From a virus, in IMG/VR virus record IMGVR_UViG_3300030090_001547, positions 1 to 24,347 of that record: a stretch of 24,347 bases of DNA. One strand, written 5' to 3'. The notes beneath the pieces were generated by a model that saw only the letters and a list, made by a program, of their open reading frames with translations, was not told the origin of the DNA and made no database searches. Each line of letters starts with the position of its first letter. The first letter of the stretch is position 1. Both the position numbers and the translations under genes were made by a program. Below, one piece after another: positions 4,182 through 13,282 of this stretch.

Positions 4182-4210
4182 TTTACTTTGGTGTTTATGG
4201 CTTATATACT
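4182..4210 (+). promoter_or_regulatory. Cassette promoter
   Basis: TTTACT at 4182-4187, 17-nt spacer, TATACT at 4205-4210; a nearly perfect copy of the consensus. A short inverted repeat TTATAG/CTATAA (4213-4225) covers the predicted start. It drives the five-gene unit 4250-5361 and probably structured RNA B. Confidence 0.75.
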
Positions 4211-7238: not shown

Positions 7239-7378
7239 AAAATAAAACTTATAGAGAAATAATCGAAGAACTCGAAGCTCTTGCTGACGACGAAAGTAAA
7301 ACGCAAGAAGAACGAGATAAAGCGAGAAAAATGCGTAACGATATTGTTGCAGAATTAACATTAAGAGCCTACGGCTAG
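7235..7378 (+). CDS. 47-residue helical peptide
   Basis: ATGA-coupled to the gene before. The peptide MKNKTYREIIEELEALADDE continues as a charged helix (EERDKARKMRNDIVAELTL), likely a short coiled coil. Followed 9 bp later by the next ATG with GGAG inside its stop region. No family recognised. Confidence 0.6.
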   Translation: MKNKTYREIIEELEALADDESKTQEERDKARKMRNDIVAELTLRAYG

Positions 7379-9835: not shown

Positions 9836-10141
9836 ATGAACGATACAGTAAAAGATAGATTCGAAGAATGTAATAGCCCTAACGAGCCGTTAGATACTTT
9901 GATTATTAGTAAAGCCTACCCTAAAGAATTAAGCGAAAAGTTGAATGGCTCAACTCGGGTAATTGTAGATTTCTACAACGTCGGTAGCTCTACTATATTG
10001 CGTATAAATGGTAACGATGGTTTCCATGCAGTCTATGCGTTTATGCGTTGTAACTCGGTTTTATCCGAAAATGAGTGCGTCGAAATGGTCGATTATATGA
10101 TTGCTGAAGATACTGCGTTTGTTGAATCTATGGCTTCATAG
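9836..10141 (+). CDS. Hypothetical protein
   Basis: A 101-residue soluble protein with AGAAAGGAGAATTTT before the ATG. It is alone in its cassette, between promoters at 9776 and 10147. No motif recognised. Confidence 0.7.
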   Translation: MNDTVKDRFEECNSPNEPLDTLIISKAYPKELSEKLNGSTRVIVDFYNVGSSTILRINGNDGFHAVYAFMRCNSVLSENECVEMVDYMIAEDTAFVESMAS

Positions 10142-10146
10142 GCTGT

Positions 10147-10175
10147 TTTACTATCGCTTTACTCGTAGCTATACT
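10147..10175 (+). promoter_or_regulatory. Cassette promoter with hairpin at +1
   Basis: TTTACT at 10147-10152, 17-nt spacer, TATACT at 10170-10175. A perfect 8-bp hairpin (10183-10190/10194-10201, loop TAG) begins about one base after the predicted start and is followed by the pseudoknot series. Confidence 0.75.
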
Positions 10176-10201
10176 ATATATAGTTAAAAATAGTTTTTAA
10201 C

Positions 10202-10313
10202 GATAGACGGGAGTGGCGAACCAGAGACAATGCCACGGTTTAAACGGGAGTCGACCGTAACAGAAGGACTCCCACGGTTTAACGGGAGTCGACCGTAACA
10301 AAAAAAGACTCCC
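10202..10313 (+). ncRNA. Tandem H-type pseudoknot leader
   Basis: Two near-identical units. Unit 1: ACGGT 10235-10239 with ACCGT 10254-10258, interleaved with GGGAGTC 10246-10252 and GACTCCC 10267-10273. Unit 2: 10274-10278/10292-10296 interleaved with 10284-10290/10307-10313. Linkers in both are 5-6 nt, 1 nt (G) and an A-rich 8-10 nt, the classic H-type geometry. A diverged copy lies upstream, with GTGGC 10213-10217/GCCAC 10232-10236 in place of GGGAGTC/GACTCCC. It sits between the promoter and the SD of the gene at 10335. No known riboswitch matched. Confidence 0.7.
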
Positions 10314-10334
10314 ATTTTATAGTAAGGAGAGATT

Positions 10335-10535
10335 ATGAAAAACTATAGAAGTAAATCAAAGATTACTCGCCACCTATTTATAGGAGAAGAGTGGTCTGAT
10401 ACAAACGGCGACCCAATGAAGGTTGTCAAAATAGAACCTGCCAAACGAGGCACGCCAGAATTTCCAGCCACTAGGCTTACATTCGATAATGGCACTCAGC
10501 TTTGGGACGGCGAACAATGGGGGGTAACATCATGA
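10335..10535 (+). CDS. Small protein under pseudoknot leader
   Basis: A 66-residue protein, basic at the start, with beta-strand-like segments (MKVVKIEP, ATRLTFDNGTQLWDG). SD AAGGAG lies 12 nt after the last pseudoknot, so folding could affect ribosome access. ATGA overlap with the next gene. No family recognised. Confidence 0.65.
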   Translation: MKNYRSKSKITRHLFIGEEWSDTNGDPMKVVKIEPAKRGTPEFPATRLTFDNGTQLWDGEQWGVTS

Positions 10536-12539: not shown

Positions 12540-12784
12540 TTGCTCTACTCTATGGCTCTACTCTATCGCTCTATCAGTCTATCAATCAGTCCATCAATCC
12601 CTCTCCCACTCCCAGTCCCTCTTTCCGTCCGTCGCTGACTGCATACCAATAGTTTAATTCCACATAATGGTTTAATTCCCGATTTCACAGCTTCTTTATA
12701 CTGCTTTACTTTGGTACCAATCTCCCATATACTATTGGGATGGTTAGGTAATTAAGCCTACCATTTATCTAGAAAGGAGAAATT
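12540..12784. other. CT-rich gap downstream of terS
   Basis: The first 110 bases are made of C, T and A with few G, built from CTCTACTCTAT and CTATCAATC blocks and ending in CCGTCCGTCG. Positions 12542-12565 recur exactly at 13158-13181. No terminator was seen after terS. The promoter at 12705-12733 and its hairpin fill the rest. Confidence 0.6.
12705..12733 (+). promoter_or_regulatory. Cassette promoter with hairpin at +1
   Basis: TTTACT at 12705-12710, 17-nt spacer, TATACT at 12728-12733. TGG-T-TAGG (12741-12748) pairs with CCTACCA (12757-12763) leaving one bulged T; it begins at about +2. Confidence 0.75.
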
Positions 12785-13129: not shown

Positions 13130-13130
13130 G

Positions 13131-13282
13131 TGCCTGCTCTACTCTACTCTATCAATCGCTCTACTCTATGGCTCTACTCTACTCTATCAATCGCTCTATC
13201 GCTCGCTCTCTCCCACCCGCCCTCCCTCTACTTTATGAATGAATCAATCTATCAATCTATCAATCAAATCCGTCCGTCCGTC
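13131..13282. repeat. CT-rich low-complexity repeat block
   Basis: Irregular tandem units of CTCTA, CTATCAATC and CTATCGCTC, then CCCACCCGCCC and CCGTCCGTCCGTCG. It shares an exact 24-base stretch with 12542-12565 and ends in the same CCGTCCG series, so the two blocks are probably diverged duplicates flanking the gene at 12785. No gene. Confidence 0.65.

Follow-up and report, generated by a model that had tools for sequence, protein, structure and literature searches.

A predicted tandem pseudoknot in a phage leader belongs to a small family found before unrelated genes

Small H-type pseudoknots with an A-rich third loop form the preQ1-I and SAM-II riboswitches, which hide the Shine-Dalgarno (SD) sequence in stem 2, and the E. 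coli rpsO pseudoknot docks at the 30S platform. In phages, the gene 32 operator of T4, T2, and RB69 is a 5' leader pseudoknot bound by gp32; in T4 it lies ∼67 nt upstream of the start, is followed by UUAA(A) repeats, and acts on gene 32 itself (PMC3014915, PMC535899). Type III antitoxins are tandem 34- to 45-nt H-type pseudoknots behind a promoter, and phages can carry mimics of them (PMC5086642, PMC4627078), an example being the pseudo-ToxI antitoxin mimic of phage TE (PMC5086642). STAXI (RF01728), found in Enterobacteriales near DNA-handling genes, likewise consists of tandem pseudoknots, often with UUCG loops (PMC2864571). Elements of both kinds, tandem pseudoknots (STAXI) and a pseudoknot in a leader (gene 32), have been described before. 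What is new here is a small predicted pseudoknot family that spans unrelated genes and two groups of marine phages and exists as presence/absence alleles. Searches of the literature turned up no description of an element of this kind, and Rfam searches of the leader element at gathering and lenient thresholds gave no family match, including none to models of known riboswitch classes (SAM-II, preQ1, etc.).

The element lies in the window, by which we mean the whole stretch of 24,347 nucleotides analyzed, within a 24.9-kb virus record (IMGVR_UViG_3300030090_001547). The window terminase is nearest to those of 023Pt_psg01, DSL-LC04, and Pelagibacter phages HTVC027P and HTVC023P (51 to 59% identity); no clear pseudoknot member was found in HTVC027P (complete) or in the first 50 kb each of HTVC023P, 023Pt_psg01, and DSL-LC04. 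The pseudoknots occupy the gap between a 101-aa open reading frame (ORF) that ends at 10141 and a 66-aa ORF (Table 1). The hexamers and spacing of the promoter-like site, followed by an AAGGAG-type ribosome-binding site (RBS) and ATG, recur at 4182, 6690, 8281, 10147, 12705, and other positions, and transcription of the leader is predicted to start near 10182. In sister phage L067 the leader-start hairpin reads GCTAAAAAATAACTTTTAGC; here a T-A pair has become C-G, with compensation on both strands. The 66-aa ORF is 74 to 97% identical in relatives. Its product has no match in Pfam, PHROG, or PADLOC, and an AlphaFold model of low confidence, a small beta barrel, has no significant match in the PDB. 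Elsewhere in the window, short CTCTACTCTA-type repeats lie between genes near the small terminase (12540-12565 and 13130-13200), and similar runs, GTAGAGTAGAG, are present in relatives.

TABLE 1 Predicted features of the leader and its downstream gene in the window
Feature	Positions	Strand	Sequence or arrangement	Remark
Promoter-like site	10147-10175	+	TTTACT-N17-TATACT	Form recurring before many genes of the phage
Leader-start hairpin	10183-10201	+	GTTAAAAATAGTTTTTAAC	From fold and sister-phage comparison
Whole inserted block	10204-10314	+	111 bases	L013 and L015 lack it in the orthologous leaders
Unit 1	10213-10236	+	Hairpin GTGGC (10213-10217)/GCCAC (10232-10236), loop GAACCAGAGACAAT	Followed directly by GGTT
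Unit 2	10235-10273	+	ACGGT (10235-10239), TTAAAC, GGGAGTC (10246-10252), G, ACCGT (10254-10258), AACAGAAG, GACTCCC (10267-10273)	H-type pseudoknot: 5 bp, L1 6, 7 bp, L2 1, L3 8
Unit 3	10274-10313	+	ACGGT (10274-10278), TTAAC, GGGAGTC (10284-10290), G, ACCGT (10292-10296), AACAAAAAAA, GACTCCC (10307-10313)	H-type pseudoknot: 5 bp, L1 5, 7 bp, L2 1, L3 10, A-rich
Shine-Dalgarno	10324-10329	+	AAGGAG	Nested folds leave it unpaired, whether or not the block is present
66-aa ORF	10335-10535	+		Conserved, downstream of the block

Units 2 and 3, of 39 and 40 nt, stand head to tail with no spacer nucleotide, each with its stems interleaved in the order stem 1 (S1), stem 2 (S2), S1', S2'. When both strands were scanned with a descriptor, they ranked as the top two H-type pseudoknots of the window, with a summed stacking of -26.0 each; the next-ranked candidate (-25.4, minus strand) is the same palindromic stretch in reverse, and the best elsewhere reached -23.4. 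Dinucleotide shuffles of the intergenic region never matched them (0 of 1,000; best, -22.5), nor did shuffles of the whole window (0 of 100; best single unit, -24.6). For adjacent pairs, the best sum in the shuffled whole window was -36.5 versus an observed -52, and the intergenic shuffles likewise gave no pair close to the observed value. No ORF of at least 50 aa covers the region, and a coding reading was set aside. The original prediction of tandem H-type pseudoknots in a gene leader is borne out by this exact stem order, by the shuffle controls, and by compensatory changes in both stems, and we conclude that the two-unit pseudoknot is a real RNA-type structure, the fold itself being predicted.

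The compensatory changes come from relatives. Relative L010 (same contig as L002) has an identical three-unit layout at the corresponding place, and S1 of its last unit is ACAGT/ACTGT versus ACGGT/ACCGT in the window; because both sides changed within one unit, pairing with a neighboring unit is disfavored. Because a MAFFT alignment misplaces the stems, we aligned 15 units by hand according to structure and tallied the pairs there. In these 15 units S2 is paired in all cells and varies at 4 of its 7 pairs, and S1 is paired in all cells except at the outermost pair and varies at 4 of its 5. The counts are not entirely independent: the set is small, and some members were found with a search pattern that specified S2 and others with one that specified S1 (the first pattern left the 5' strand of S1 free, and the last left S2' free). 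When the 3' strands were re-dealt among unique strand pairs, the observed pairing was reached in 0.5% (S1) and 3.5% (S2) of trials. Both predicted stems are supported by compensatory changes in relatives. A chance or repeat artifact would fit the identical stem-2 sequence of many members. Given the absence of shuffle matches, the compensatory changes, and the members retrieved by protein homology that are described below (L120, L121, and L125), we reject that explanation as extremely improbable.

Unit 1 is of another kind. It had been read as a diverged third copy whose pairing was kept with different bases in place of those of S2. The pairing stands: GTGGC/GCCAC can form, and in sister phages L058, L061, L067, and L080 it is re-paired as TAGC/GCTA around the loop AAACCAGAACT, with the RAACCAGA loop sequence kept (AACCAGA in the window). 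The position-for-position replacement of S2 does not, since GGGAGT persists 5' of the hairpin and the 3' arm, GCCAC, overlaps S1 of unit 2 (ACGGT) by two bases; unit 1 is better described as a separate conserved hairpin. An additional H-type pseudoknot between AACC (10219-10222) and the GGTT beside unit 1 was rejected as sterically implausible, as zero bases would have to span five pairs. The dinucleotide that unit 1 shares with S1 of unit 2 is AC in the window and TA in L067. Between these two sequence types its partners on both sides change with it (GT-AC-GT to TA-TA-TA), a hint that the two helices may form as alternatives.

Such an alternative pairing is what a metabolite riboswitch of the small H-type kind (SAM-II, preQ1-I) would use, the shared dinucleotide switching partners, and the topology, the A-rich L3, the tandem copies, and the joint change between the window and L067 would all suit one. 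Nevertheless, we regard a riboswitch as quite unlikely. In preQ1-I and SAM-II the SD is part of the pseudoknot, whereas in the window it lies outside; S2' contains no SD, and nested folds leave the SD largely unpaired. Furthermore, the leader element has no Rfam match, the downstream genes have no common known pathway, and the element is dispensable.

That dispensability is seen among the orthologs of the window's own gene, whose leaders exist in zero-unit, one-unit, and multi-unit versions. Besides the window and L010, relative L003 has a single unit, without a promoter, that stands immediately behind the stop codon of the 101-aa ORF; its S2 pairing is kept through a G-U pair. Relatives L013 and L015, whose 66-aa proteins are 74 and 75% identical, have the promoter and the RBS and lack the pseudoknot. 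The L013 leader reads ...TTTAACGA|TTTTATAG... (as given with the orthologs of the 66-aa gene, ...TTTAACGA|TTTTATAGAAGGAG), and the window carries the 111-base block between the two halves. Homologs without the stems, of the kind that the original prediction listed as a refutation, exist at the level of the gene, which therefore does not require the element.

The same block also stands before an unrelated gene. Among the leaders of 80 relatives, retrieved through the small terminase, L058, L061, L067, and L080 read TAGC AAACCAGAACT GCTA GGTT..AACA GGGAGTC T ACCTA CAGAAAAA GACTCCC, behind the same promoter type and before an unrelated 65- to 92-aa ORF. Compared with the window, both unit 1 (TAGC/GCTA versus GTGGC/GCCAC) and S1 (TAGGT/ACCTA versus ACGGT/ACCGT) are re-paired. 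In many phages the same ORF and promoter occur without the block, and by nucleotide comparison of the coding sequences (CDS) every filled allele compared was nearest to an empty one: L061 to L071 (98.9% identity), L058 to L072 (91.8%), and L080, L067, and L093 to L062 (93.9, 89.8, and 92.4%, respectively). Filled alleles are 73 to 89% identical to each other, and the L058 and L061 blocks are nearly identical. These relationships indicate that gain and loss, or exchange, of the block does not depend on the gene behind it, and the predicted element is a separable leader module without a fixed link to the 66-aa protein. Pairs of filled and empty leaders on nearly identical genes constitute natural experiments on a pseudoknot at the 30S edge. 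The family also suggests that phages can exchange regulatory RNA much as they do genes. The 65- to 92-aa ORF family (L058 7187-7456, L067 8642-8839, and L080 1626-1904) encodes a small conserved protein that by eye resembles ribosome modulation factor, with no significant Pfam match; a structure model of it was unusable.

A pseudoknot-aware descriptor search in other phages, proposed with the original prediction, found further members (L114, L170, L171, and L174). L114, detected by the pattern scan, is a contig of a marine phage and has both a gp32-like and a UvsX-like gene (PHROG 1192 and 97, respectively); its element, TAGGT ATCA GGGAGTC A ACCTA CAGCCACAAA GACTCCC, ends 26 nt upstream of the uvsX AUG. 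Retrieval by UvsX protein homology, not by RNA pattern, yielded L120 (GCAGG CTC GGGAGTC T CCTGT GTTGAAAAT GACTCCC), L121 (in L121-L124, AAGGT TTT GGGGAGC TG GCCTA CAATAAAAA GCTTCCC), and L125 (AAGGT TTC GAGGAGC TT GCCTA CTGTCGATAAAG GCTCCTC, before a small ORF); L119, retrieved likewise, has no pseudoknot at the corresponding place. The last pattern scan added L174; L171, where the element sits between a gp32-like gene and a tRNA-Gly gene; and L170, in which two different pseudoknots stand ∼60 nt apart in one gp32-uvsX gap. One of these two (L170a) and the element of L171 directly follow the gp32-like gene, 83 to 105 nt from the next candidate start codon. Judged by sequence, the window-type and gp32/uvsX-type members could reflect either a common ancestor or convergence. 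A pseudoknot-before-RBS descriptor matched 119 times versus 43 in a reversed-sequence control, in a 1.16-Mb set that is redundant and partly selected for these elements. Matches in L001 and L088-L092 were discarded as chance, lacking S2, and among the 27 contigs of the pattern scan those outside the described families proved to be simple hairpins or unrelated-sequence matches.

Every member read is in the sense orientation and lies between genes. There is one pseudoknot locus per genome, missing from many close relatives. A DNA-level element (an origin, packaging, or recombination site) that merely resembles an RNA pseudoknot could account for the insertion of a short block at equivalent places in the leaders of two genes, and STAXI has also been considered as a possible single-stranded DNA (ssDNA) structure (PMC2864571). 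The interleaved stems, the asymmetric loops, the constant sense orientation, the G-U pairs retained in the stems of L003 and L121, and the patchy single locus make this very unlikely. STAXI itself appears distinct, its model (RF01728) having no cmscan match among the members tested. The repetition typical of STAXI (at least 2 units) is found in the window and L010; L003, L058, and L067, like most members, have single units and L170 has two that are ∼60 nt apart.

Across 12 coding contexts, drawn from two phage groups that are unrelated, S2' ends 19 to 26 nt before the AUG and 8 to 15 nt before the SD (the block in the window ends 21 nt upstream of the AUG), which we take to be just outside the 30S footprint. 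The earlier suggestion that the element controls ribosome access holds in part. Because the SD is free in nested folds of the window leader, the block does not appear to act by hiding it, and simple RBS masking is disfavored; its constant distance from the AUG does suggest a link to the initiation region. With moderate confidence, we propose a cis-acting leader element that would control initiation, or decay of the mRNA or its leader, at the 30S edge. The block would be transcribed from the phage promoter at 10147 and fold cotranscriptionally into a stem stack whose end borders the 30S initiation footprint, from where it would act in cis on initiation or leader decay, leaving the SD free. Most likely a protein or the 30S platform would use it as a docking or operator site, in the manner of the T4 gene 32 operator or the rpsO pseudoknot of E. 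coli, and recombination via the common promoter and RBS sequences would swap it between leaders.

The gene 32 operator is also similar in layout, with a single H-type pseudoknot 5' of a phage-gene RBS and an AU-rich stretch between them, and some members here adjoin gp32/uvsX-type genes. In contrast to that operator, the members end at -19 to -26, can be tandem, are present or absent among orthologs, and stand before several unrelated genes or after gp32. The downstream genes are the 66-aa ORF, the 65- to 92-aa ORF, or UvsX, not a gene 32-type ssDNA-binding protein. Two observations run counter to a cis leader role, namely, that orthologous genes lack the block and that L170a and L171 follow a gp32-like gene; in light of the latter, the element may act at the 3' end of the upstream gene or as a general intercistronic element. 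Its members can also be viewed, tentatively and with somewhat less confidence than the cis-acting role, as mobile pseudoknot cassettes, modules that move between leaders of unrelated genes and unrelated marine phage groups and provide gene-independent plug-in control or protection.

A more specific boundary function would be that of an attenuator, in which the pseudoknot and the A(C/T)TTTTA-like sequence that follows S2' in many members act together as a pseudoknotted terminator of low efficiency or shield the 3' end of the upstream mRNA. The two members directly behind gp32-like genes would fit it, as would the uvsX leaders of distant relatives, in which pseudoknot-capable stems precede long T runs. 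We consider it improbable, however, because the window has only ∼4 T residues there and no Rho-independent terminator was called on the plus strand from 10235 to 10335, L058 and L067 have no T stretch, and in the window and the L058/L067 group the element sits downstream of its own promoter. The uvsX leaders of L129-L137 contain terminator-like hairpins (GAGGCAC..GTGCCTC plus a T run) whose loop can pair with an upstream AACC/ACCC, possible pseudoknotted terminators before uvsX-like genes.

Alternatively, the tandem pseudoknots could be an antitoxin-like decoy that binds a host ribonuclease toxin of the ToxN/CptN/TenpN type in trans, an anti-defense cargo spread between phages. Like ToxI, CptI, and TenpI, the window has tandem H-type repeats downstream of a promoter; the repeat length of 38 to 40 nt, the A-rich third loop, the copy number of 0, 1, or 2, and the patchy distribution also recall type III antitoxins and phage TE. 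Yet the toxin holds ToxI by its tails, and units 2 and 3 have no single-stranded linker between them, most members are single units, no terminator separates the repeats from the gene, and the AUG spacing is fixed even without a nearby promoter, which suggests a cis role. A search of nine phage records for ToxN-type PF13958 gave no match, with the control genomes silent too, and the downstream 66-aa ORF had no Pfam, PHROG, or PADLOC match as a ToxN/CptN/TenpN-type endoribonuclease. With the tandem H-type repeats present but no toxin gene found in these searches, no terminator called, and no linker tails, membership in the type III antitoxins was rejected, and a decoy role seems unlikely.

Other candidate RNAs were noted in these phages. 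A conserved intergenic candidate, GTCAGCAGG..CCTGTCATA.CAACTCGGAGTGCGGTTGTCTGACGAAA(A)GCACTCC, occurs in L019 (∼1000-1070), L023, L030 (∼7240-7315), L037, and L048, just upstream of a promoter and with no Rfam match; its interleaved stems are GTCAG/CTGAC, CAGG/CCTG, CAACT/GGTTG (re-paired as CAACT/AGTTG in L037), and GGAGTGC/GCACTCC. L016, L018, L021, L029, L035, and L074 have modular, apparently structured, noncoding leaders of 200 to 400 nt with common blocks such as GTCAGCCATCGGGTGCGAGA..TTATCCCGAGAAGTGAC..CTACTAGA, and those scanned had no Rfam match. Finally, L082 and L087 (4453-4490) carry a different pseudoknot with a one-base L1, GTGATAG A TGGCGGT CTATCAC AAAAC ACCGCCA, directly before the RBS of an 84-aa ORF.
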